IMG/VR virus record: IMGVR_UViG_3300042691_004653
Span: 1-30,278 of that record
Source: a virus
Direction: 5' to 3' (one strand)
DNA: 30,278 nucleotides
The notes under the pieces: generated by a model
Databases searched by the model: none
Told to the model about the DNA's origin: nothing
The model's input: the letters and a program-made list of their open reading frames with translations, nothing else
Translations under genes and position numbers: made by a program
In this document: piece after piece, positions 1 to 30,278 of the stretch
How the letters are laid out: each line of letters begins with the position of its first letter
Position numbering within the stretch: the first letter of the stretch is position 1

Positions 1-102
1 GAAATATTTAATAAATCCATATACATTTGTGTTGTACCACCAGGGAATGTTCCTGTCCTACTTACATAAACAGAATGATTATACACCTGGTTAAAAAATG
101 CC
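1..102. repeat. Terminal direct repeat, left copy
   Basis: Bases 1-102 recur at 30177-30278 with a single difference (C at 71, T at 30247). The repeat lies inside one reading frame that continues across the joint. This is what an assembler leaves at the ends of a circular or circularly permuted molecule, so the unit genome is about 30,176 bp. A true short terminal repeat of a linear phage genome is possible but less likely, because it would interrupt a gene. Confidence 0.93.
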
Positions 103-569
103 CTGGTATTTGATAAATATGTCAAAAATACACTACCTGTTCCTGTTACATATGTACCAAAAAATCTAACGGATAAACAGGGAATGTTATTGATTACATT
201 AATTCCTAATATCTCTCTTTGAAATGATGTGGGAATAGTAATTGATAATCCTGTTGGCAATGTACCAGGTATGCCATTAACTGCGCCAATGAAACGATTG
301 TTGGGAATCAGATTTTGGCCACCTGGTAAATATTCATAAACATCATAATTGTATTGGCCTGGATCTTTATCTTCAACGAATGCCTGAAATTTATTATACC
401 TGGTTGGATATAATGATAAATCATTGAACCATGGGAAATCTAAACTAAATGAATCATGCGTTGCCTTGTTTTTTAAATACATCCTATAATTGGGATATGC
501 ATTCAATTTGCGTTCCTGCCAGGACACATTTAATGATGTATCATCGCCATCATTCTGAAAATACAACAT
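1..569 (-). CDS. Fibre/receptor-binding-like protein, N-terminal part (continues at the other end of the window)
   Basis: Translation on the minus strand starts at the ATG at 569-567, 11 nt after the stop of the glycosyltransferase gene, and stays open to base 1. Joined at the circular seam to 30176-29279 it gives one frame of 489 codons (488 aa); the C-terminal half is described under 29279-30278. This part holds roughly residues 1-189. It starts MLYFQNDGDDTSLNVSWQ and has no signal peptide or membrane segment; it is rich in Asn, Thr, Tyr and aromatic residues, as beta-rich virion proteins usually are. The repeat mismatch changes a Val to Ile in YNHS(V/I)YVS, a conservative change that suggests strain variation. 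It sits between a glycosyltransferase and the portal gene. A virion appendage is my inference from composition and from the C-terminal domain. Confidence 0.8.
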   Translation of the reverse strand, partial: MLYFQNDGDDTSLNVSWQERKLNAYPNYRMYLKNKATHDSFSLDFPWFNDLSLYPTRYNKFQAFVEDKDPGQYNYDVYEYLPGGQNLIPNNRFIGAVNGIPGTLPTGLSITIPTSFQREILGINVINNIPCLSVRFFGTYVTGTGSVFLTYLSNTRAFFNQVYNHSVYVSRTGTFPGGTTQMYMDLLNI

Positions 570-580
570 GCCGTTTATCT

Positions 581-1651
581 TTAAATAGTGTTTTTCAAAC
601 TTTTGTACAATTCCAATCGTTTTTTACAGATATCATTAGGTTTGAACATTGACCTGATTTTGGTTTCCAATCGTTTGGCCATTTCCCTGGTCATATCTAC
701 ATCCAACATCATCCGTTTCATGTATTTGTGCCAATCACCTGGCCTCTTTGGATTTACCAAAAATCCATCCACACCATGTTCAATTACATCCCTGTACATG
801 GTAATATCTGTGGCAATGATGGTTTTACCCATCCATGCGGCCTCAACAACCTTTAATTCAGATTTCAACCCATTGAATTTATTAAAACGCAATGGTGCCA
901 ATCCTACATCCACAAAATTATATCCGCCAATGTATGAATACACATCCGTTCCTGCAATCCGGCAATAATTATCATTTTCATATCTACCGGAAAATATTTC
1001 CTCATACTGATGGCCAATTTTGTTCTGCTCATGATATCCTGCCATGTACAATTTGTATTTGCCATTTAACGATTTATCATGCGCCAACCTTTCAAATCCC
1101 AATGCAACAGATTGGATATCCTCCAAATGTTGGGATGCGCCAAAATATCCAAATCTAATTATATCAGATGGTTCCGGTTTCTTTTCAAATTGCTTATACA
1201 TATCCGTTGGCACATTTTCCAGGATGGTGCAATTTGAATTGATTTTAACAATCTCATCCCTTAAATATTTGGTTGTGGTTGTGATATGATCTGCAATCTT
1301 TATATGTTCAATGATGCATGGTGACATTTGCCGTTTTTGGTAATCTTCATAAAATGCATGGCCTGGTTGCAATGTCCAATAATCATCCAAATCCAAAACG
1401 ATTTTGGCACCAAATTTCCGCAATACATCCGCAACAGGTTTCACATATTGAATCAATGATGACCATGACCGATTTATTATAATCAAATCCATGATTCTCA
1501 ATTGATCTTCTGTCATTTCATCAATTTTATCAATTGAGAAAAATTGTATTTCATCACCATACAATTCATGCATTTTGGCATGTGGCATTTCCAACCGATA
1601 CAAAGAACATCCATTTGGATGGCCATTGTTGTAAATCAAACATATGTTCAT
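581..1651 (-). CDS. GT4-like (GT-B fold) glycosyltransferase
   Basis: This 356-aa protein probably moves a sugar from a nucleotide-sugar donor to a glycan or protein acceptor in the cytoplasm. The N-terminus MNICLIYNNGHPNGCSLYRL is typical of GT-B enzymes, and the C-terminal half has the donor-site block KSELKVVEAAWMGK (about residues 262-276) followed by TIIATDITMYRDVIEHGVDG, as in family GT4. The frame is open up to 1708, but that stretch would translate a terminator hairpin (1668-1695), so I place the start at 1651, just after it. The next gene (fibre-like) begins 11 nt after the stop, so the two are likely co-translated. The acceptor is unknown: virion protein decoration or a change to the host surface are both possible. 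Family call is strong, substrate unknown. Confidence 0.85.
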   Translation of the reverse strand: MNICLIYNNGHPNGCSLYRLEMPHAKMHELYGDEIQFFSIDKIDEMTEDQLRIMDLIIINRSWSSLIQYVKPVADVLRKFGAKIVLDLDDYWTLQPGHAFYEDYQKRQMSPCIIEHIKIADHITTTTKYLRDEIVKINSNCTILENVPTDMYKQFEKKPEPSDIIRFGYFGASQHLEDIQSVALGFERLAHDKSLNGKYKLYMAGYHEQNKIGHQYEEIFSGRYENDNYCRIAGTDVYSYIGGYNFVDVGLAPLRFNKFNGLKSELKVVEAAWMGKTIIATDITMYRDVIEHGVDGFLVNPKRPGDWHKYMKRMMLDVDMTREMAKRLETKIRSMFKPNDICKKRLELYKSLKNTI

Positions 1652-4586: not shown

Positions 4587-4814
4587 AATCTTTATTTTGG
4601 TTTTATTTTGATTTTATTTTTTTTTGGGAAACATATATATTATAATTAATATATCTATTATATATATCTATTATATGTATATATTATATATATCTATTAT
4701 ATGTATCTATTATATGTATCTATTATATGTATCTATTATATGTATCTATTATATATATCTAATAATATTGTTTTTCTTTTTTTTGGTTCTTTTTTTTCTT
4801 TTATGATAAATGCA
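4587..4814. other. Non-coding AT-rich spacer between tape measure and capsid block
   Basis: These 228 bases hold no credible gene. From high to low coordinates they contain a pyrimidine-rich tract on the plus strand (4771-4804), eight 13-bp tandem repeats (4652-4755), an AT stretch, and an A-rich leader for the protease gene (4621-4590, minus strand). No hairpin terminator and no clear TAnnTTTG promoter were found. It may hold the start of capsid transcription or act as an mRNA boundary; that is inference from position. Confidence 0.75.
4652..4755. repeat. Array of eight 13-bp tandem repeats
   Basis: Plus-strand unit TATCTATTATATG is repeated in register eight times: five exact copies at 4665-4677, 4691-4703, 4704-4716, 4717-4729 and 4730-4742; copies at 4652 and 4743 end in A instead of G; the copy at 4678 is diverged (TATATATTATATA). 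The array is made only of A/T apart from one C and one G per unit. Iteron, promoter or protein-binding roles are all open. The nearest coding sequences are 60 nt (tape measure stop) and 66 nt (protease start) away. Confidence 0.92.
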
Positions 4815-11432: not shown

Positions 11433-11753
11433 CTATAAATAGGTTTTTTCAAATTGTTGTGCATTATTACCCCTGTCAATATCCCTCCATATCATAAATG
11501 CATTCAAAAACTCAATGGCCGATAATTTAAAATATGCATCCATCCTGATGTAATCATATCCTGCCATTTTATATGCCACACCCAACCAACCATATGTTGG
11601 CCGTTTTATTCCCTGTCCATTGTCCTGTTCCTCATCTCCCTCTGTAAAACATCCTTCAAACTCTTGTGTAAAATTTCTGAAAATCCCAAAAAAAAACCAA
11701 TGTATCCCATGACATCCACAATATTGGCATTTAAAAATTGTTCTGCCCTCCAT
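11433..11753 (-). CDS. Downstream frame of the tail assembly chaperone-like gene (probable -1 frameshift extension)
   Basis: The frame open from 11753 to 11433 overlaps the 185-aa gene by 148 nt and reads one base behind it. Used after a -1 slip at the T9 run (11696-11688, minus strand), it adds GIFRNFTQEFEGCFTEGD and on to RPTYGWLGVAYKMAGYDY and AIEFLNAFMIWRDI, giving a fused product of 243 aa. The ATG at 11753 sits inside the first gene with no leader of the local type, so independent translation is unlikely. The YGW...LA/MA...I...E..F pattern resembles the C-terminal part of tail-chaperone-like proteins of Bacteroidota phages as I remember them. A homopolymer error in assembly could produce the same picture. 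Confidence 0.62.
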   Translation of the reverse strand: MEGRTIFKCQYCGCHGIHWFFFGIFRNFTQEFEGCFTEGDEEQDNGQGIKRPTYGWLGVAYKMAGYDYIRMDAYFKLSAIEFLNAFMIWRDIDRGNNAQQFEKTYL

Positions 11754-12163
11754 TTGTGATCATTGGCATTGTATGATTCCGGATACCATTTTAGGAATAA
11801 ACATTTGAATGATAATGTGGCCAATATATTTTGCATATTCCTATTGATGTTGGCAAAATCATTCAAATCATAATTTAACACCTCTATCAATTGCCCTGCC
11901 GTACATTCATTAAAATCATGAACCATTTTGAATGTTAAATTGCCAATGGTGATATGGTTTTTTATTGGTGCCGTTTTTACCTGCTCATGCACTTGTGTTA
12001 CTTTATCAAATATATGATTTACATATTCCTGTTTCAATTTTAACACCTCTTCAAATGATATCCCCGAAATAATAGCCACACATGACAATTTTTTATGGTA
12101 ATCATCCAAATTATCATTATCCAAAATGGTCAATATGCGTTGGTATTGTTTTAATGTCATCAT
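11606..12163 (-). CDS. Tail assembly chaperone-like protein (upstream frame)
   Basis: This 185-aa, mostly helical protein starts MMTLKQYQRILTILDNDNLD and overlaps the stop of the glycosyltransferase upstream (ATGA). Near the C-terminus it has IVDVMGYIGFFLGFSEILHK, and the codons GGT TTT TTT TTG of that GFFL contain nine consecutive T. Tail assembly chaperones in siphoviruses are often made as a short form and a longer -1 frameshifted form, in lambda called G and G-T. Size, helical character, the slippery run and a second frame immediately behind fit this. In lambda the pair lies just before the tape measure; here four genes start between them, which is unusual. Assignment is by analogy. Confidence 0.6.
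   Translation of the reverse strand: MMTLKQYQRILTILDNDNLDDYHKKLSCVAIISGISFEEVLKLKQEYVNHIFDKVTQVHEQVKTAPIKNHITIGNLTFKMVHDFNECTAGQLIEVLNYDLNDFANINRNMQNILATLSFKCLFLKWYPESYNANDHKWRAEQFLNANIVDVMGYIGFFLGFSEILHKSLKDVLQREMRNRTMDRE
11688..11696 (-). other. T9 slippery site for -1 frameshift
   Basis: Nine T on the minus strand in the context GGT TTT TTT TTG of the upstream frame allow tandem slippage of two Phe codons by one base, after which the ribosome reads TTT GGG ATT in the downstream frame. The fusion reading from 12163 to 11433 with one base re-read gives a whole number of codons (244). Confidence 0.6.
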
Positions 12164-12861
12164 TTCAAACTATCTAAATATGACCATAATTTATTTGCAT
12201 CTGCAATCCGTTCCGGCCTTAAATTCATGTATTTCTGTTCCACCTGGTTATCCTTTGCCCTCTGTAATCTTTCCTCATGCGTTTGATCCAATGGATGTTT
12301 ACCTGCCGTAAAATGCATATGTTCTGTATAAATAGGAATGTGGTGAAATCTGCCAATCATTGTGGCCACCTCATTTATCCAGGTATCACAATAATCTGCC
12401 TCAAAATATGGCGGCAAAAAATAACCAACTACATCAATCCATCTTTTGTGCAAAAAACCATGCGTTCCAAATCTGCCTTTTGGATGTATGCCATCATATC
12501 CAAATGCAAATGAAATTTTATCCGGAATGGAATTAAAATGATCTCTTACCATTTCATCCCATCTGTTGGTTCTGATTCGTATATCATCCCCACATTGCAT
12601 AAAAATATCCGCATCCGATATCTCAACACATTTGTTCCACATATCCGACAAAACGATTCTTTGACCAATCACCCATTTAATCTGTGGCCATGTTTGATGT
12701 AAATGTTCCGCCATTTTTTTGGATTTCTCATCATCATCATCAATGTAAAATATTGGCTCAATGAATGTTGGTGCAATGGCATTGGCCATGGCCTCAACTA
12801 TACATTCCATCATTGATTTTGGCCGGTTCCTGGTTGGTATGCAAATGGCTATTTTTTCCAT
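12160..12861 (-). CDS. GT-A (GT2-like) glycosyltransferase
   Basis: This 233-aa protein starts MEKIAICIPTRNRPKSMMEC, the classic opening of a GT-A nucleotide-sugar transferase, and has GDD at about 91-93 (MQCGDDIRIRTNRWDEM) in the place of the metal-binding DxD. Later IHPKGRFGTHGFLHKRW and YFEADYCDTWINEVA resemble acceptor-side motifs. I use ATG 12861 rather than the TTG at 12876, because the ATG gives a normal GT2 N-terminus and lies 12 nt after the stop of the epimerase gene. It is the last gene of the four-gene sugar cassette, and its stop overlaps the start of the tail chaperone-like gene. Donor and acceptor are unknown. Confidence 0.78.
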   Translation of the reverse strand: MEKIAICIPTRNRPKSMMECIVEAMANAIAPTFIEPIFYIDDDDEKSKKMAEHLHQTWPQIKWVIGQRIVLSDMWNKCVEISDADIFMQCGDDIRIRTNRWDEMVRDHFNSIPDKISFAFGYDGIHPKGRFGTHGFLHKRWIDVVGYFLPPYFEADYCDTWINEVATMIGRFHHIPIYTEHMHFTAGKHPLDQTHEERLQRAKDNQVEQKYMNLRPERIADANKLWSYLDSLK

Positions 12862-12872
12862 ATCCAAAATCT

Positions 12873-13886
12873 TCAATTTGCGGCATTCATTTTAATCCAA
12901 TGGTATAAATCCCCTATGCCATCCCTTAAATTCATCTGTGCGTTCCATTTTAACAAATCCCCTGCCTTTTTGCAATCACCATACCTGGCAACATCTCCAA
13001 CCGGATCATCATTGTTGCCATAATTGATTTGGCATTCAACACCTGTTTGGGATTCTGATATTTCTTTTATGATTTCTGCCACATGGCGAATGGTTATTGG
13101 TGTTTCAGATCCAATCATTATTTCCTCATAATTCGACCATGTAAAATCAGGCACCATCAAAACATTATTATCCATGGCCTTTTCAATGGCATCCACCACA
13201 TCCCCAACATGGACAAAATCTCTCACCTGGTTTCCGTTGCCCCATACATCCAATTTTGTTGGATCCTGTATTGCCTTTGAAATCAATGCCGGAATCACCT
13301 GTGGTGCCTTGCTATAATCACAATACCGGCCATATACATTATGCAACATCAATGTAATGGTTTGTATGCCTGTCAATTCTGCCAACATTTGGAATCCAAT
13401 ATTGCCCATCAATTTTGACCAACCATATCCTGATTCCGGATGTGCCGGATACAAATCCGTTTCCACCAATGGCCATGGATTTACATCATTCTGCAAAAAT
13501 TTTGGGAATGAACATGCCGTTCCAACATATATGATTTTTTTTAACCTATGGTTGCCCATACTGATGGCATTGATGACATTGGTATTGATCAATAAATTTT
13601 GATTAAATACCGCCAACTGATTATCAAACACATAATTCACACCACCAACAACATCCGCCAAATGAATCAATATATCTGCCTCATTCAACCAATTATCCAA
13701 TGATCCTGGTTTGCTTAAATCCATGGTGATGAAATGATCAATAATACATTGGCCATCATCCATTATATGTTCCAATTTGCCCCTGGATAAATCATCAATT
13801 CCAATGACCTGGTGATTATCTGCCACCAATGACCGGATTAAATTTGAACCAATCATTCCACATGCCCCTGTTACAATTATTCTCAT
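12873..13886 (-). CDS. NAD(P)-dependent nucleotide-sugar epimerase/dehydratase (extended SDR)
   Basis: This 337-aa protein belongs to the extended short-chain dehydrogenase family acting on nucleotide sugars. It has GACGMIG (residues 7-13; GxxGxxG cofactor loop), HLADVVGGVNYV, GTACSFPKF, the catalytic Tyr154-x3-Lys158 in ESGYGWSKLMG, and LDVWGNGNQVRDFVHVGDVV near the C-terminus. The pattern GTACSFPK... HPESGYGWSK... LHNVYG is closest to GDP-mannose 3,5-epimerase and GDP-fucose synthase enzymes, which would make a GDP-linked sugar for the neighbouring transferases; this exact assignment is tentative. Its ATG overlaps the methyltransferase stop (ATGA). Confidence 0.82.
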   Translation of the reverse strand: MRIIVTGACGMIGSNLIRSLVADNHQVIGIDDLSRGKLEHIMDDGQCIIDHFITMDLSKPGSLDNWLNEADILIHLADVVGGVNYVFDNQLAVFNQNLLINTNVINAISMGNHRLKKIIYVGTACSFPKFLQNDVNPWPLVETDLYPAHPESGYGWSKLMGNIGFQMLAELTGIQTITLMLHNVYGRYCDYSKAPQVIPALISKAIQDPTKLDVWGNGNQVRDFVHVGDVVDAIEKAMDNNVLMVPDFTWSNYEEIMIGSETPITIRHVAEIIKEISESQTGVECQINYGNNDDPVGDVARYGDCKKAGDLLKWNAQMNLRDGIGDLYHWIKMNAAN

Positions 13887-14515
13887 TGCATTATTGATAA
13901 ATATGGTTTAACTAATAAAAAAGATTTTTTTGATTTACAGATTACACCCAATCCTGCTGAATGATCAAATGCAAATTTGTATGGCTCATCCAATTCATTA
14001 AAGAATCGGCCAACATCATCCGGAAATGAATGTGTATCATGGAACAAAATGGCACCATCACTATGGACAAATTTTGACCATTTCTCATAATCATTTTTGA
14101 CTGCCTCATATGTATGTAATCCATCTATGTGCAAAATGTCAATTGGTTTTGTCCATGTGGCGGCAACATCATCAAAATATCCTTTGATGATTTCAACTGA
14201 ATTGTTTTTATGTGCCTTTTTAATCTGTTGATGGATTTTTGTAACATGATCATATGCATCCGAATGGTACCCGGCATGGGCATCACCTTCAAATGCATCA
14301 ATACCATATACTTTTCCGATTTTCAACATTCCCCATATAAAGGTGCTGAATCCATAATCCACACCTAAATCAACAATGGTTTTTGGTTTTAATGCAAATT
14401 GCAATGACAATGCAAATTTGGCATGTCCAATCCATGCGGATGGTTTTTGCGTTATCAATTCATAATATGCCTTCATCTGCTTTTCGATCTGTTCCCTTTC
14501 TTTATTGTATCCCAT
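13883..14515 (-). CDS. Class I SAM-dependent methyltransferase, probably sugar O-methyltransferase
   Basis: This 210-aa protein has the SAM-binding motif TIVDLGVDYGFST (about 46-58), an acidic end of strand 2 at GKVYGIDAFEGDAH (about 67-80), and PIDILHIDGLHTYEAVKNDY (about 124-143) with ILFHDTHSF after it. That last pair is characteristic of methyltransferases of the Methyltransf_24 / cephalosporin-hydroxylase type, several of which methylate sugars. Its neighbours are two glycosyltransferases and an epimerase, so a sugar O-methyl capping role is a sensible inference. It starts 6 nt after the stop of the glycosyltransferase 14521-15297 and ends overlapping the epimerase start. Confidence 0.75.
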   Translation of the reverse strand: MGYNKEREQIEKQMKAYYELITQKPSAWIGHAKFALSLQFALKPKTIVDLGVDYGFSTFIWGMLKIGKVYGIDAFEGDAHAGYHSDAYDHVTKIHQQIKKAHKNNSVEIIKGYFDDVAATWTKPIDILHIDGLHTYEAVKNDYEKWSKFVHSDGAILFHDTHSFPDDVGRFFNELDEPYKFAFDHSAGLGVICKSKKSFLLVKPYLSIMQ

Positions 14516-14520
14516 AATTA

Positions 14521-15297
14521 TTATTTTGAAATGATTGTATCTGTGATCCCATCATATCGTTTTTTCAATGATGATGAATGGTTGCATGTTGCCAGGTAAT
14601 TTTTATATTCTTCATCCCTTTCCAATAATTCATCTGTGAAATAGTATGGAATATGGCGGCATTCATACGGATGTTGCATTCTAACACCACCAATGCCTGG
14701 ATTTGCGCCATTGTTTTGATCTGTTACATCATATAATGCAAATGTTGTATCCACCGGTGCCAATTGTACCCCATTGATTTTTGGTTGCTCATGGTACCTC
14801 AATTCCATGTTGGTAAAATATTTGGAATCCCAATTGACATCATCAACCCTAATGCCTAATCCAACTTTGGTTCTGTATCCAATTTTGGCACCTGTAAATG
14901 GATCACCATTCCTGCCCTGGTAATCATATTTTCCCCATGGCAATTTTTGGTATTCATCAACCATGGCATCCAATGTATCCTTTGGCAATCCTGCCAAATC
15001 TAAATCCGGATCAGTTACCACATAATACCTGCATTTTAATTCATTGATTATTTGTTTTGGCAATTCAATCATCCATGGTGCATAATGCCCCAAATTATAT
15101 TTCATCCGGATGACATTGACATTTTTTGATAATCTCAATGAATGATACCAATCCAACAAAGGGAAATAATCTGAATTGTTATCCACAATGAATATTTGCC
15201 CAACATTTTTCCACCTGGACAATATTTGAATCATGTGTTTTGGATAACTCAACAAATTGAAATTGTTGATTATAATGGGAATTTGCTTTGAATACAT
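14521..15297 (-). CDS. GT-A glycosyltransferase-like protein
   Basis: This 258-aa protein has a GT-A N-terminal half: IPIIINNFNLL at 7-15, VDNNSDY at 38-44, and the metal-binding style DPDLD at 96-100 (YVVTDPDLDLAGLP). The C-terminal half has LAPVDTTFALYDVT, which fits the second acidic site, and PYECRHIPYYF. It opens the four-gene sugar cassette directly after the large terminase gene, and a promoter-like TAAATTTG box (15318-15311) lies 13 nt before its ATG. Family-level assignment is good; the sugar and acceptor are not known. Confidence 0.72.
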   Translation of the reverse strand: MYSKQIPIIINNFNLLSYPKHMIQILSRWKNVGQIFIVDNNSDYFPLLDWYHSLRLSKNVNVIRMKYNLGHYAPWMIELPKQIINELKCRYYVVTDPDLDLAGLPKDTLDAMVDEYQKLPWGKYDYQGRNGDPFTGAKIGYRTKVGLGIRVDDVNWDSKYFTNMELRYHEQPKINGVQLAPVDTTFALYDVTDQNNGANPGIGGVRMQHPYECRHIPYYFTDELLERDEEYKNYLATCNHSSSLKKRYDGITDTIISK

Positions 15298-15310
15298 AAT
15301 AGGTTTTGCA

Positions 15311-15318
15311 CAAATTTA
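15311..15318 (-). promoter_or_regulatory. Promoter-like -7 box (TAAATTTG) before the sugar cassette
   Basis: On the minus strand TAAATTTG fits the Bacteroidota -7 consensus TAnnTTTG. It overlaps the terminase stop and ends 13 nt before the start codon at 15297. Downstream it reads TGCAAAAC, identical to the sequence after the box at 23187-23180. No -33 TTTG was found at the right distance, so this may be a weak or activator-dependent promoter. Confidence 0.4.
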
Positions 15319-16488
15319 CATAATAACATACTTGCCACCTGCGTTTTTTGACAATTTATTTAATGCTACATATCGGATGGCATCCATTGCATGGTTGTAT
15401 GAATCTATTGGCACATCCAGGGATTTGCCATTTTTATCTGTATCCCAAACATAATTCCGCAATTCCCTAATAATATTGATGGAATTTGTTGTGATCTCCA
15501 TTTCATACCGGTTCAATATGTCAATGCCATTGCGGATTGAATCTGCGCCCTTAATTGCCGGTTTAATGTTGAATCCAAATCTATAAATCTCCTCAATAGA
15601 TTTTGGTTCTGCGCTATCTGCTACGATTTCATGTGACCTGGTGATACCAAATTGTTTCAATCTGTTTACAATATCCAGGTTGGTCAATCCTGTTGTGTAC
15701 ATCATTTCATGGATTTGGATTTTGCCATCACATAAATACATGGCCACCATGGCCGTTGGATCTGATGAATAACCAAAATCCAATCCATATGCAATCAATT
15801 TGGCATTTGGATTTACCTGTGATATCTGTTTCCAATTTCCATATACTGCCCCTGTCAAATTGCCTATCTGCCCCAATCCCATTACCTGCCACCAATTCGC
15901 CCAAAACTCTGATGTTTTGGCCTTTTCCCTGGCCAATTCAATATCCTTTTTTATCCCTTCATCCAGGGCATCATTATCTTGATATGTTAATATTATCAAC
16001 TCTGCATCCGGTTCATTTAATACCTCCGTATGCGCCCAAAATTCTGATGTTGGATTGAAATCAATATAGATATCCCCGGATGTACGGATGGCCAATTGAT
16101 AATAAGAATTGAAATCAATGTTGTTGGCCTCATTGACATATAAAACATTCCTCCTGGCTCCTCTTAATTTGGCCTCTGATTCTGCACTAAAAAATTCAAT
16201 GGTTGATCCATTGGCAAATGTGTATATCAACAGGGATTTATTCCAATGGGCATCCCTCCATCTGTTTGTTGCCTCCATGATCTTTTGGAAATCTTTAATG
16301 CATCCTCTGCGTAAATGTGGGATGGTTTCCGACACAACAGAAATATCAGTTTTCTTCCTGGCGGCAATCGAAATCAAAACGGATAAAATGGCAATGGTTT
16401 TCCCGGCACTTGTGCCGCCCTGGATTATCTTTTTACGGCTTTTAAGCGCACGAATCCTATGGATGGCATTGGTGTACTTATATTCCAT
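15316..16488 (-). CDS. terL: Large terminase subunit
   Basis: This 390-aa protein is the DNA-packaging motor with nuclease. ATPase motifs: Walker A in IIQGGTSAGKT (about 21-31) and Walker B in NVLYVNEANNI (about 114-123). Nuclease acidic residues: Asp237 in AYGLDFGYSSD, Asp291 in VADSAEPK and Asp369 in NHAMDAIRYV. Order and spacing are those of the PBSX/XtmB-type large terminases. It follows the small terminase gene by 9 nt. The end of the protein overlaps the promoter-like box of the sugar cassette. Length is slightly short of the usual 400-450 aa but all key residues are present. Confidence 0.95.
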   Translation of the reverse strand: MEYKYTNAIHRIRALKSRKKIIQGGTSAGKTIAILSVLISIAARKKTDISVVSETIPHLRRGCIKDFQKIMEATNRWRDAHWNKSLLIYTFANGSTIEFFSAESEAKLRGARRNVLYVNEANNIDFNSYYQLAIRTSGDIYIDFNPTSEFWAHTEVLNEPDAELIILTYQDNDALDEGIKKDIELAREKAKTSEFWANWWQVMGLGQIGNLTGAVYGNWKQISQVNPNAKLIAYGLDFGYSSDPTAMVAMYLCDGKIQIHEMMYTTGLTNLDIVNRLKQFGITRSHEIVADSAEPKSIEEIYRFGFNIKPAIKGADSIRNGIDILNRYEMEITTNSINIIRELRNYVWDTDKNGKSLDVPIDSYNHAMDAIRYVALNKLSKNAGGKYVIM

Positions 16489-17346: not shown

Positions 17347-17839
17347 TTTTTAGTTTTTGTTTAGAATTTTCAATGGATCTGCGGATGGTTCGATATGGTA
17401 TGGTTGTTAATTTGGCTATGGTGGTCATGTTGTATATCTGTAAATACAACAAAAACAATTTTTTTTCAAACGGATATTGTCCCGGTTTTGCCCATGTATC
17501 CATGATATCCATTGCCTTTTTATACAGGTGATCAATTTGATGGTCATATTGATTATCTGAAATATTACATATTTCATCATTGATATTAATGTTTTCCTGG
17601 CCATGTCTGTATTTCTTTTGGAAATCGGATGTTGTTGATCTAAATAAATTCGTGGCAATCCCAATTATATAATATTTTAATTGGTTTTTGTTGAACAGAT
17701 CATTTATGATTGTTGGTTCTTTTTCCAATAAGATCAACACAATTTCATGTGCCAAATCATCTGCATAATCTTTCCCTGCAATGGTATTGCAAATCTTTTG
17801 AATGGTGCCATCCTCATATATTTTTAGAATGATGTTCAT
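17309..17839 (-). CDS. Sigma-factor-like transcription regulator
   Basis: This 176-aa protein resembles short sigma-70-family (ECF-like) factors. The N-terminal half has DYADDLAHEIVLILLEK (about 24-40) followed by NQLKYYIIGIATNLFRSTTS, which matches a region-2 helix pair. The C-terminal half has YNMTTIAKLTTIPYRTIRRS, a region-4 helix-turn-helix, with Arg-rich recognition helix. Such factors redirect RNA polymerase. It lies directly before the terminase and late genes, a sensible place for a switch to late expression. It overlaps the preceding gene by 26 nt and the next by 38 nt. Confidence 0.72.
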   Translation of the reverse strand: MNIILKIYEDGTIQKICNTIAGKDYADDLAHEIVLILLEKEPTIINDLFNKNQLKYYIIGIATNLFRSTTSDFQKKYRHGQENININDEICNISDNQYDHQIDHLYKKAMDIMDTWAKPGQYPFEKKLFLLYLQIYNMTTIAKLTTIPYRTIRRSIENSKQKLKNALSNDFNNSNL

Positions 17840-18182
17840 GGCCGCATTGTGGGCAAATATATGTTTCCAGGTGCCATGGCTTTATCTTGTAATAAAACCT
17901 ATATTGTTTGTGTTTGGAATCAACCAAAAATGTTGCCTCATTGATAGAATGAATGATTGTGGAATGGTGGCAATTTAATTGTGATGCAATGGTTTGTAAT
18001 TTGAATCCACAATTGCGTAAACACAATGCCAGGATTTGGCGGCATGTTTTCAAATCCGTTTTCCTGGATTTGCTTAATATCTCTGCCTTTGCCAAACCTG
18101 TTACCTGTTCTATTTGATCCATGTAGTAATCAAATATTTTGGTTTGATCGTTTGTCATGCGTTTGTGTGCAACCTGGTTCAT
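17814..18182 (-). CDS. DnaA domain IV-like DNA-binding protein with Cys/His tail
   Basis: This 122-aa protein has the pattern of the DNA-binding domain IV of DnaA (about residues 12-84): KAEILSKSRKTDLKTCRQIL, LALCLRNCGFKLQTIASQL and CHHSTIIHSINEA. The H-H-S-T-I-I-H block corresponds to the signature with which DnaA contacts its box. There is no ATPase domain. The C-terminus ends with CPQCGHEHHS, a possible half zinc ribbon. Its ATG overlaps the nuclease stop (ATGA). It may mark the phage origin, act as repressor, or compete with host DnaA; these are inferences. Confidence 0.75.
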   Translation of the reverse strand: MNQVAHKRMTNDQTKIFDYYMDQIEQVTGLAKAEILSKSRKTDLKTCRQILALCLRNCGFKLQTIASQLNCHHSTIIHSINEATFLVDSKHKQYRFYYKIKPWHLETYICPQCGHEHHSKNI

Positions 18183-27059: not shown

Positions 27060-29273
27060 TTAAACTACTCTTGAAATTTGCCCATCCTTTTTAACCACCA
27101 ATTGTTGTTGCCACATATGTCTGCATGATGGCCTATGGCGGCCATCCGGCAATGTTAGCCATCCACCTCTTTGTTCCCAAACATTAATGCCCACCAATTT
27201 GGAAATGGCATCAATATCATTTTTGGTGTATAATTTAGTTTCTGCCAAATCCATCATGGTTTTACAAAAATCCCTGGATTTATCATATCCTTCATCTTTA
27301 CTCAAATTCCTGTATTCAAATCTCCATTCATACCTGTACATCACATACACCATTGGTTCCTCTGTTTCCTTTGCCTTTTTATCAATGGCCTCTTTGATTG
27401 GATATTTCCCATTGTCCAATAAATATTGGATCCTTTCTTTCACTTTGGCCAATGGAATGTTCAATTCATCCGCCATTTCTTTGGCCGTTGCATCCGGATT
27501 CTTTTTTCTGTATTTGATGATGGATTCATCCCATTTTTTTTCCTCATCCGACAATGCCGCAAAATGCCATTGCCTAAACTCTAATTCATTTGCCTCTAAA
27601 TCATCAAATAGCGCATCACATGGCCTCTGATTTATAATTTGGCATTCCGATACATTGTGGCCAAATTGTTGGCCTACAATGGCTAAATATGCGTAATCTG
27701 TGGATGCATCAATTTGGGAAAATTCCTGTTGATTAATTCCCAACAACATATTGATTTGTGGTGTATCCAAACCAAATCCGGATTGGATCATCATCGTTGC
27801 CTGTTCCGTTGTAATCTTGCCCTGGTTGTGATGCCTCACAATCCGCATCAGATTTTGGTATTGGCGGCCTGTCAATCCTTTAATGGATTCATTAACTTGT
27901 GATGCCGCAACCGGTGTTTCATCTGTTGGAATGGTTGGATCCATATTTGGTATGATTTCACCATCTGCATGGTTTGGTAATGATGCCAATGCCCTGATCT
28001 CATTTGGTGTCATGTTTTCCAAAACCTTATTGGCCACCAATGGTGATAATGTGTTTAATGCATTTAAAACATCCTCATCTGTTGGTTTCTTTTTAATTTT
28101 CGATAATCCGGCTTTATCACGCAATTCATCAGGTGTCATGATCTGCAACATAGTTTGTTCATTGAATGCCTGTGAAATCGGTTCCAATGGTTTTAATTCC
28201 ATTTCGGGAACATCATTAAATGATGCCAGGTAATTAAACGATTGTTCCAAAATATGTTGCCGGTGATTAATGTATGTGGATTTAAATAATTCATATGCAT
28301 CCACCATCTCATTCCTGCCACCTAATTGCCCCTCCGTTCTAATACCAAACAACATTGGTGATGTAACATTGTGTGCAACAAATATTTCCTGTTGAATCTG
28401 TTTATTTAACAGATCAAATTGTTTATCCAGGTCATTGGTGGTTAATGGCTCAATTGTTGGCGCATTTTCTTTACCGGTGCTGAATGTCACTACAAATCTA
28501 CCTGCATTTTTGGTACCGCTAAATTTGTTTTTAATCTCCCTTTCAATTTCATATTTTTCTTCCTCTGTTGGTATTCCATCATTAAAATTAATCATCATCC
28601 CTCCCCAAAATTGGTTCCGGATATTATTGATATGGAATTTGGCAATTTCGGCATCACATTCAATATATGGTATTGCGGCCTCATATGTTGGCAATGGATA
28701 TGTTTTCACACCCGGCATGTAATTCCGGTGATAATACATTTGTTTGCCTGTCCTTTTCTTTGGATTGAATTTGGGCATTTTCTCAATGGCACCTGCTGAT
28801 TGTGATTTGCGGATCATGGATTCATCATACCAATCACAAATCAAATAATCACCATCTGTGTTCAATCGTATCTTTTCAAATGGCACATGCTCAATCATGG
28901 CAATGGTACCACCTTTTGCCCATGTCACCGCCAATCCAAAACCATTATACAATTCCATGTCCAAAATCACCTTTTGTGTTAATTCATTTAAATCATCATC
29001 CACATTGGGATTTAATATGAATTGATCTAATTTGGCCTCCGCCAATAGTGTTTTGGTGCCTTTAATTCCCCATCCATTGCCATAAATGTATTGGCATTTG
29101 GAATTAATGATGGCCATGTGTTTTGCTGATTTTTTGTATAAAAACAACAACATATATGGATATTCATTGGCATATCCATATTGGATCAAATTACCTGATT
29201 TATTTTCAACCAAAACAGGATATTGGTAATCATCATTTGGCACCAATGAAAATGCCACCTTTGTTTTTTCCAT
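27060..29273 (-). CDS. Portal protein with long C-terminal extension
   Basis: This 737-aa protein is a portal, the ring through which DNA enters the capsid. Portal-like segments are AIINSKCQYIYGNGWGIKGT (about 54-73), NGFGLAVTWAKGGTIAMIEH (about 110-129) and NVTSPMLFGIRTEGQLGGRN (about 304-323), of the SPP1/HK97 portal style. From about 400 onward there are added modules: Pro/Asn-rich spacers, a helix-turn-helix-like segment (about 592-624, DATAKEMADELNIPLAKVKE), and a C-terminal part with WEQRGGWLTLPDGRHRPSCR (about 699-718) followed by MWQQQLVV. Portal genes of about 450-500 aa are usual, so some 230 residues are extra. The C-terminal part resembles minor head (MuF-like) fusions; tentative. 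Confidence 0.8.
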   Translation of the reverse strand: MEKTKVAFSLVPNDDYQYPVLVENKSGNLIQYGYANEYPYMLLFLYKKSAKHMAIINSKCQYIYGNGWGIKGTKTLLAEAKLDQFILNPNVDDDLNELTQKVILDMELYNGFGLAVTWAKGGTIAMIEHVPFEKIRLNTDGDYLICDWYDESMIRKSQSAGAIEKMPKFNPKKRTGKQMYYHRNYMPGVKTYPLPTYEAAIPYIECDAEIAKFHINNIRNQFWGGMMINFNDGIPTEEEKYEIEREIKNKFSGTKNAGRFVVTFSTGKENAPTIEPLTTNDLDKQFDLLNKQIQQEIFVAHNVTSPMLFGIRTEGQLGGRNEMVDAYELFKSTYINHRQHILEQSFNYLASFNDVPEMELKPLEPISQAFNEQTMLQIMTPDELRDKAGLSKIKKKPTDEDVLNALNTLSPLVANKVLENMTPNEIRALASLPNHADGEIIPNMDPTIPTDETPVAASQVNESIKGLTGRQYQNLMRIVRHHNQGKITTEQATMMIQSGFGLDTPQINMLLGINQQEFSQIDASTDYAYLAIVGQQFGHNVSECQIINQRPCDALFDDLEANELEFRQWHFAALSDEEKKWDESIIKYRKKNPDATAKEMADELNIPLAKVKERIQYLLDNGKYPIKEAIDKKAKETEEPMVYVMYRYEWRFEYRNLSKDEGYDKSRDFCKTMMDLAETKLYTKNDIDAISKLVGINVWEQRGGWLTLPDGRHRPSCRHMWQQQLVVKKDGQISRVV

Positions 29274-29278
29274 TTTAA

Positions 29279-30278
29279 TTAATATTGAACATATGTTGTT
29301 TCCTCATCATAATCATATACAGGTGATTCCGCCATGGCCACCAATGCATTTCCATTTTCAATGATAGCCACATGATTATCCGGGAAAAACCTGGCGGCCA
29401 CCACACCTGTTGTGTCTATATATTCCGTTGCAACTGCCCCAAATTCCAATTGTGGTGCCGCACTTAAAAATGATGAATTAATAGGTAATGCATTATCCAT
29501 TTGCATTAAATAAAAAACTGAAATCGCACCTGATGGTGTTGTTCCAACATTAATAGTTACCGCCACCCGATACCAACCATTGCCCTCATTGGTTACGGAT
29601 GCTGAACAACTTGTTACCGATATAATTGTAACACCTGTGGATGTTATATTAAATCTACATCTCCAATTTATATTGCCCCATTGGGAAATATTATTGAATT
29701 CCATTGATGTGGCAAAATCCACCCCATTATATTTAAAATATCGGCTAATAGTGTATGTGGTGGAACCAATCGGCAATTGTTGTAAACATTGTTGAACTGC
29801 GGCATATCCACTACCTGCCAATGATTTGGTGATTAATGTGGATTGAATACCGGCAATTGGTGTATCCGCATTGTTGGCCGTTGTAACACCTGTGGATGCA
29901 ATAAATGATAATCCATTGGGAACAAAATTAATGGCCTGTGCATTCCTGGCCGTTCCTGTGGTTTGTATTGGTGCATTTAATGTATTGCCCAAACTCACCT
30001 GTGGCAATCCTACATTCAAAACAAAATCATAAACATTACCATTAATGAAATTAGTGATGAAAATATATGCGCTTATTAATCCTACGCTTGAATTGTTTAA
30101 TGTAGTATTGTAATTAAATCTATTTAATCCACTTGATAATGTTATTGTGTTGATTGATGTGGATAAATATCCGCCCGAAATATTTAATAAATCCATATAC
30201 ATTTGTGTTGTACCACCAGGGAATGTTCCTGTCCTACTTACATAAATAGAATGATTATACACCTGGTTAAAAAATGCC
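29279..30278 (-). CDS. Fibre/receptor-binding-like protein, C-terminal part (starts across the joint)
   Basis: This is the rest of the 488-aa protein whose start is at 569. It holds a beta-rich region and a late block with TYTISRYFKYNGVDFATSME, NEGNGWYRVAVTINV and QLEFGAVATEYIDTTGVV (about residues 432-449). The pattern YTxSxYxK...GWYRV...AQLExGAxATxYIxT is typical of carbohydrate-binding jelly-roll domains in phage fibres and head spikes, so it probably binds host surface sugars. The C-terminus is short and acidic (YDYDEETTYVQY). It lies 5 nt before the portal start. The first 102 bases of this part duplicate the left end of the window. Confidence 0.75.
   Translation of the reverse strand, partial: AFFNQVYNHSIYVSRTGTFPGGTTQMYMDLLNISGGYLSTSINTITLSSGLNRFNYNTTLNNSSVGLISAYIFITNFINGNVYDFVLNVGLPQVSLGNTLNAPIQTTGTARNAQAINFVPNGLSFIASTGVTTANNADTPIAGIQSTLITKSLAGSGYAAVQQCLQQLPIGSTTYTISRYFKYNGVDFATSMEFNNISQWGNINWRCRFNITSTGVTIISVTSCSASVTNEGNGWYRVAVTINVGTTPSGAISVFYLMQMDNALPINSSFLSAAPQLEFGAVATEYIDTTGVVAARFFPDNHVAIIENGNALVAMAESPVYDYDEETTYVQY
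30177..30278. repeat. Terminal direct repeat, right copy
   Basis: Identical to bases 1-102 except T at 30247 in place of C at 71. The difference changes one codon from Val to Ile in the fibre-like protein. Confidence 0.93.

Follow-up and report, generated by a model that had tools for sequence, protein, structure and literature searches.

The locus raises the question of what is served by a block of four sugar genes placed between the terminase and tail genes of a small phage, and by a fifth such gene beside its fibre gene. The window, i.e., the whole stretch of DNA that was analysed, is the IMG/VR virus contig IMGVR_UViG_3300042691_004653 (30,278 bp), whose features are listed in Table 1. 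Positions 1–102 and 30177–30278 form a terminal repeat of 102 bases with one mismatch, and this overlap of the contig ends indicates that the genome, of ~30.2 kb, is essentially complete and that the fibre gene is divided by the ends. All recognisable genes are carried on the minus strand. The terminase large subunit (TerL) shares 67% identity with a short contig from a Chitinophagaceae MAG, 50% with Flavobacterium psychrophilum phages, and 46% with a Salinimicrobium sequence; based on these matches, Bacteroidota is the most likely host group. None of the window proteins scanned matched an integrase, the Rfam and tRNA scans gave no matches, the scan for capsid candidates gave no result, and the promoter search revealed no full Bacteroidota-type promoter, with short motifs at chance frequency or below. 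The portal protein (27060–29273) is long, at 737 aa, with a winged-helix-like HTH_24 match at residues 585–622, after the portal domain, and a 122-aa protein (17814–18182) consists mostly of a DnaA DNA-binding domain (Bac_DnaA_C). Simple AT-rich repeats (4587–4814) lie between the tape-measure and protease-like genes, where the plus-strand frame reads as Ile/Tyr repeats.

Table 1. Positions of the sugar genes, the slot, and the bordering genes in the window.
Feature	Position	Strand	Basis
Fibre gene, 5' part (488 aa whole)	1..569	-	frame joined across the overlapping ends
GT4, core glycosyltransferase immediately preceding the fibre gene	581..1651	-	Pfam, PHROG
g185, bordering the slot downstream; probable tail assembly chaperone	11606..12163	-	place kept in 51 relatives
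Variable glycan slot between TerL and g185	12160..15315	-	52/52 loci filled, 15 gene sets
GTA1, GT2-type glycosyltransferase	12160..12861 (ATG), or to 12876 (TTG)	-	phrog_14945
EPI, extended-SDR nucleotide-sugar epimerase or reductase	12873..13886	-	Pfam Epimerase, E 2.2e-44
MT, SAM methyltransferase, Methyltransf_24	13883..14515	-	Pfam, E 5.7e-20
GTA2, predicted GT-A-fold glycosyltransferase, first slot gene	14521..15297	-	fold model; relatives in other slots
TerL, terminase large subunit, bordering the slot upstream	15316..16488	-	Terminase_3C, phrog_2
Fibre gene, 3' part	29279..30278	-	phrog_5939, tail protein, E 2.2e-10

In the order of transcription, the region reads TerL, GTA2, MT, EPI, GTA1, and g185, with junctions of +18, +5, −4, −4 (with the TTG start of GTA1), and −4 bases. 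The initial annotation had described an uninterrupted, overlapping set between terminase and tail genes; the set is indeed uninterrupted, with gaps of only 18 and 5 bp and overlaps at the remaining junctions, while its overlapping nature applies to three junctions of 4 bp each, provided that GTA1 starts at TTG, the other two being gaps. Gene order also bears out the co-linearity of the sugar genes with the virion genes. At 35–39%, the GC content of the block resembles that of the genome (36.5%), and thus its base composition gives no sign of recent import; a DNA search with the block against phage isolates gave no match. The role of g185 as a probable tail assembly chaperone is suggested by its position. 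Additionally, g185 and g106 (11433–12163) share a 148-base overlap in the −1 frame, with a T run around 11690–11696; the overlap recurs in relatives and, together with the T run, resembles tail assembly chaperones made via a programmed frameshift.

All five sugar genes proved to be real, and the families originally assigned to them were confirmed, by Pfam for MT, EPI, and GT4, by PHROG for GTA1, and by fold for GTA2. Structure prediction and family searches placed none of the proteins in an unrelated family, GTA2 being family-less with a GT-A-like model. MT clears the cut-off of Methyltransf_24 (72.6 vs 26.3 bits), and its closest solved structure is 6g7d (MeT1, a sugar 1-O-methyltransferase of mycobacteria); judged by these matches, MT is probably a sugar O-methyltransferase. 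The link between methyltransferase and glycosyltransferase drawn in the initial annotation is corroborated by Synechococcus phage S-SRM01, in which the C-terminal domain of a GT2–MT fusion protein is 49% identical to MT, thus tying the MT type to glycosyl transfer. The fusion gene clusters with a sulfotransferase, an epimerase, and a tail-fibre-like gene. A common inheritance of this cluster and the window block as one set was rejected, the S-SRM01 epimerase being only weakly similar to EPI.

The best PHROG match of MT is labelled a DNA methyltransferase, and DNA glycosylation by phage glycosyltransferases is known (PMC12619734), both of which would suit a reading in which the glycosyltransferases modify phage DNA bases against restriction, as in T4-like or hypermodified phages. 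However, the Methyltransf_24 assignment, with 6g7d as the closest solved structure, was preferred to this label, and the UDP-galactopyranose mutase and acyltransferase genes found at the same place in relatives fit poorly with such a function. Since no base hydroxylase, hydroxymethylase, or thymidylate-synthase-like enzyme was recognised among the scanned window proteins, several of which are family-less, DNA modification is considered very improbable.

The closest solved relative of EPI is GDP-mannose 3,5-epimerase (E 1.6e-29), and alignment to 2c5e/8sg0 indicates that EPI retains the cofactor motif, the YxxxK motif, and the catalytic Cys. The Lys of the REK motif, which is present in GDP-mannose 3,5-epimerase and in the relative on contig L082, is aligned with Val or Gln in EPI, and therefore no sugar is assigned to this enzyme. 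With this catalytic Lys replaced, EPI was not assigned as a GDP-mannose 3,5-epimerase, nor as a GDP-L-fucose synthase, for which it scores 102 bits against an NCBIfam equivalog cut-off of 500. The earlier label of a GDP-sugar-like epimerase is thus retained as to the extended-SDR sugar epimerase family, while its GDP-sugar part comes down to distant similarity only. The sole close viral relative of EPI (L082:3785-6951) is preceded by a B12-binding radical SAM gene.

GTA1 matches the glycosyltransferase family phrog_14945 (E 2.7e-31) and misses the Pfam Glycos_transf_2 cut-off (20.7 vs 23.3 bits, E 4.4e-4); on these profile scores it is described as GT2-type and is not counted as a member of the GT2 family. 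A relative of GTA1 with 51% identity ends a sugar cluster (L083:1619-6702) on a 67.6-kb virus contig, and the other genes of this cluster, i.e., a methyltransferase, an epimerase, a GDP-mannose 4,6-dehydratase-like gene, and a DegT aminotransferase, represent a fuller sugar pathway. GTA2 has no glycosyltransferase family match in Pfam, PHROG, or NCBIfam. According to its AlphaFold model, built from 13 aligned sequences (mean pLDDT 80), GTA2 has a GT-A fold with a DxD-type motif; the motif TDPDLDL is invariant in 13 relatives. The VIA Z score of the model is at most 12.8, over 175 residues, and is best to a mannosyltransferase, with other GT-A enzymes similar. Neither the Foldseek nor the VIA lists single out one family for GTA2, and therefore no donor is named. 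A single-sequence search of IMG/VR and phage records with GTA2 gave no relatives; these were reached via TerL and, at 41–48% identity, occupy the slots of other phages.

The place of these genes was followed in relatives by a TerL search of IMG/VR, which gave 80 loci with 64–67% identity, 51 of which contain both TerL and g185 and, with the window, make up 52 slots. None is empty, and their lengths range from 548 to 3152 bp, the longest being that of the window. The initial annotation had proposed a comparison of related genomes for presence or absence of the block, and the outcome is that the slot is filled in 51/51 relatives with varying contents. Fifteen distinct gene sets are found, including a hexapeptide acyltransferase with a GT4-type transferase (14 loci), an MT-type gene alone (eight loci, 57–60% identity), a GT-A-like protein with MT and GTA2 (six loci), a GT-A-like protein with GTA2 and an FkbM methyltransferase (five loci), a GT-A-like protein with MT and two unannotated genes (five loci), a UDP-galactopyranose mutase with a second gene (three loci), and nine others. 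Every slot includes one or more genes that profile matches, or BLASTP similarity to genes so assigned, place among the glycosyltransferases, methyltransferases, acyltransferases, or UDP-galactopyranose mutases. The accompanying families without annotation include cl8, cl9, cl11, cl14, and cl16, and for the commonest unannotated family (22 loci) the predicted fold is GT-A or nucleotidyltransferase-like. EPI and GTA1 are absent from the slots of all 51 relatives. In addition, the window slot combines GTA2, otherwise confined to one half of the TerL tree, with an MT type whose other carriers lie in the opposite half.

The borders of the slot are far more stable than its contents. In the pairs L010/L013 and L005/L013, TerL and g185 are 97% and 96% alike in DNA, respectively, with no detectable DNA similarity between the slots, and L028/L030 and many further pairs likewise have similar flanks around unrelated slots. 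The TerL tree requires the gene set to have changed at least 22 times. The genomes G001 and G004 share twelve proteins, from TerL to the fibre, that are 81–99% identical (GT4 99%, fibre 92%), and their slots hold the acyltransferase and GT4-type pair in one and MT alone in the other. These near-identical cores with different content at one site correspond to a flexible phage gene island. As judged from these alignments, recombination replaces the slot contents and leaves the flanking virion genes almost unchanged, and the four-gene block is almost certainly one filling of a variable slot, that is, an exchangeable glycan cassette.

Terminase genes are often located in variable islands of environmental phages (PMC7468147), and the slot might accordingly be a mere recombination-tolerant site between modules, collecting passing genes that act on sugars in no common role. 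This is considered extremely improbable given that 0/52 slots are empty, that the contents are limited in kind, co-directional, and near gapless, and that purifying selection is strong. The dN/dS values of ~0.02–0.30 in the slot families tested indicate working genes under such selection and, together with the position, gene class, and strand that recur in the 51 relatives, mark the block as more than chance.

The fifth gene behaves differently. GT4 was said to encode a GT4 transferase beside the fibre gene, and it does match the family, with Glyco_trans_1_4 (E 1.8e-9, 38.4 bits vs a cut-off of 27), Glycos_transf_1 (34.6 vs 26.4 bits), and phrog_7162 (E 1.2e-36); the fibre gene starts 11 bp after it and crosses the overlapping contig ends. 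GT4 is present in all 10 relatives that cover its region (of 17 longer relatives), with 43–53% identity, and lies in these between g181 and the fibre–portal genes. By this recurrence across aligned genomes, GT4 is a conserved core gene, unlike the contents of the slot. In L093 and L094 (G011:C1:19187-20250), an in-frame stop splits the gene, owing either to decay of the gene or to misassembly. A syntenic outgroup, a Bacteroidetes MAG contig with the same late-gene order, is without both parts: TerL is followed after 32 bp by a g201-like gene in place of the slot, and g181, one 131-aa gene, and the portal gene come in succession, with no GT4. No sugar gene was recognised behind TerL in the Salinimicrobium sequence, nor by annotation, which is mostly 'hypothetical', in Flavobacterium phage FPSV-S2. 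Among the few outgroups, one of them with full synteny, the slot and GT4 thus appear to be both present in the group and both absent in the best outgroup.

The initial annotation had proposed a self-contained pathway in which a GDP-sugar is made, transferred, and methyl-capped. This is not borne out by the relatives, most of whose slots are without a nucleotide-sugar enzyme, eight holding MT alone. With so few nucleotide-sugar enzymes and with MT-only slots, the contents are better seen as interchangeable decoration genes, which have to draw on nucleotide sugars of the host and perhaps on what GT4 makes; an MT-only slot depends on a sugar from another enzyme, for which the core GT4 is the obvious candidate. 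Hydropathy revealed no membrane segments in the five proteins (top 19-residue value ≤1.51), and, given their place in the morphogenesis cluster, the enzymes are presumably cytoplasmic and synthesised together with the virion proteins.

We propose a model in which the slot enzymes would be soluble, cytoplasmic, and produced alongside the other late products, and would act on a virion protein, possibly the fibre, the capsid, or a neighbouring structural protein. GT4 would start the glycan with a sugar taken from a nucleotide sugar of the host; GTA1 and GTA2 would lengthen it, EPI would provide an altered donor sugar, and MT would methylate the glycan. A swap of the cassette would then yield another exposed glycan type, comparable to a change of serotype. 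The model as a whole, with GT4 priming, the cassette extending or capping the glycan, and a virion protein as the target, is put forward at about even chances. No acceptor site was recognised, and position in the late cluster would not on its own prove the virion to be the target.

The main rival, and a serious alternative, is that the slot enzymes alter the surface glycans of the infected cell, i.e., lipopolysaccharide or capsule precursors, to block superinfection or to keep released particles from attaching to debris, with the cassettes differing as the surface sugars of the hosts do. Loci for surface polysaccharides typically encode hexapeptide acyltransferases, UDP-galactopyranose mutase, and FkbM methyltransferases, all three of which are found among the slots; the repeated swaps would fit matching to host surface types as well. 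However, no membrane-bound transferase, flippase, or integrase is seen in the window, the genes lie among late morphogenesis genes, when little time is left for a change of the surface, and GT4 is linked to the fibre gene in every relative covering the region. Modification of the host envelope is accordingly rated as rather unlikely. Returning to the virion as the target, the group may tentatively, at a little under even chances, represent a serotype-like particle system of small Bacteroidota phages, in which a conserved GT4 beside the fibre gene primes a virion protein, exchangeable cassettes in one obligatory slot add and cap the outer sugars, and recombination switches the glycan type of the particle separately from the fibre.

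Few systems of phage virion glycosylation are known, and their natural use away from animal antibodies is obscure. A slot that is always filled, under selection, and often swapped suggests that a change of glycan matters in the wild, and its variants form a natural near-isogenic set for asking which purpose is served, be it attachment, superinfection, or avoidance of traps or grazers. Should the target be the host envelope, the slot would instead record the range of ways in which these phages alter the cell surface.

Taken singly, the components (phage glycosyltransferases, virion glycans, and flexible phage islands) have been described before; a description of a fixed, never-empty slot limited to glycan-type genes, with at least 22 swaps in one phage group and paired with a conserved fibre-side GT4, was not found in the open-access papers searched. 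Bacterial capsule and O-antigen loci likewise have conserved flanks around swappable sugar genes, which give rise to serotypes, whereas the slot is viral, contains no recognised flippase or polymerase, and measures only 0.55–3.2 kb. The serotype-converting gtr clusters of temperate phages also consist of phage glycosyltransferase genes; however, no GtrA flippase, membrane-bound transferase, or integrase was found here. In mycobacteriophages (Che8, Corndog, and Myrna; Freeman 2023), glycans are reported to be carried on the capsid and tail tube (as described in PMC12363180 and PMC12619734). The likeness lies in phage-encoded glycosyltransferases and in a virion protein as the target, which here is a proposed one; the mycobacteriophage glycans have been detected and the enzymes are few, whereas here glycans are predicted from a multi-enzyme, exchangeable cassette in one fixed slot. 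The cytoplasmic capsid glycosylation of chlorovirus PBCV-1 resembles the present case in its soluble viral glycosyltransferases and nucleotide-sugar enzymes, and antigenic variants of chloroviruses differ in their capsid glycans (PMC7019647). Variants of the PBCV-1 enzymes alter the glycan type, as would be expected in the proposed model; however, PBCV-1 is a eukaryotic virus, and its unrelated genes are dispersed in a large genome instead of being gathered in one slot (PMC7019647). Finally, the flexible modules of cryoconite phages (metagenomic islands) share with the slot the pattern of near-identical cores with swapped modules, but these are mostly DNA methyltransferases, homing endonucleases, and tail fibres exchanged as homologous variants (PMC7468147), whereas the slot exchanges non-homologous gene sets of one functional class.
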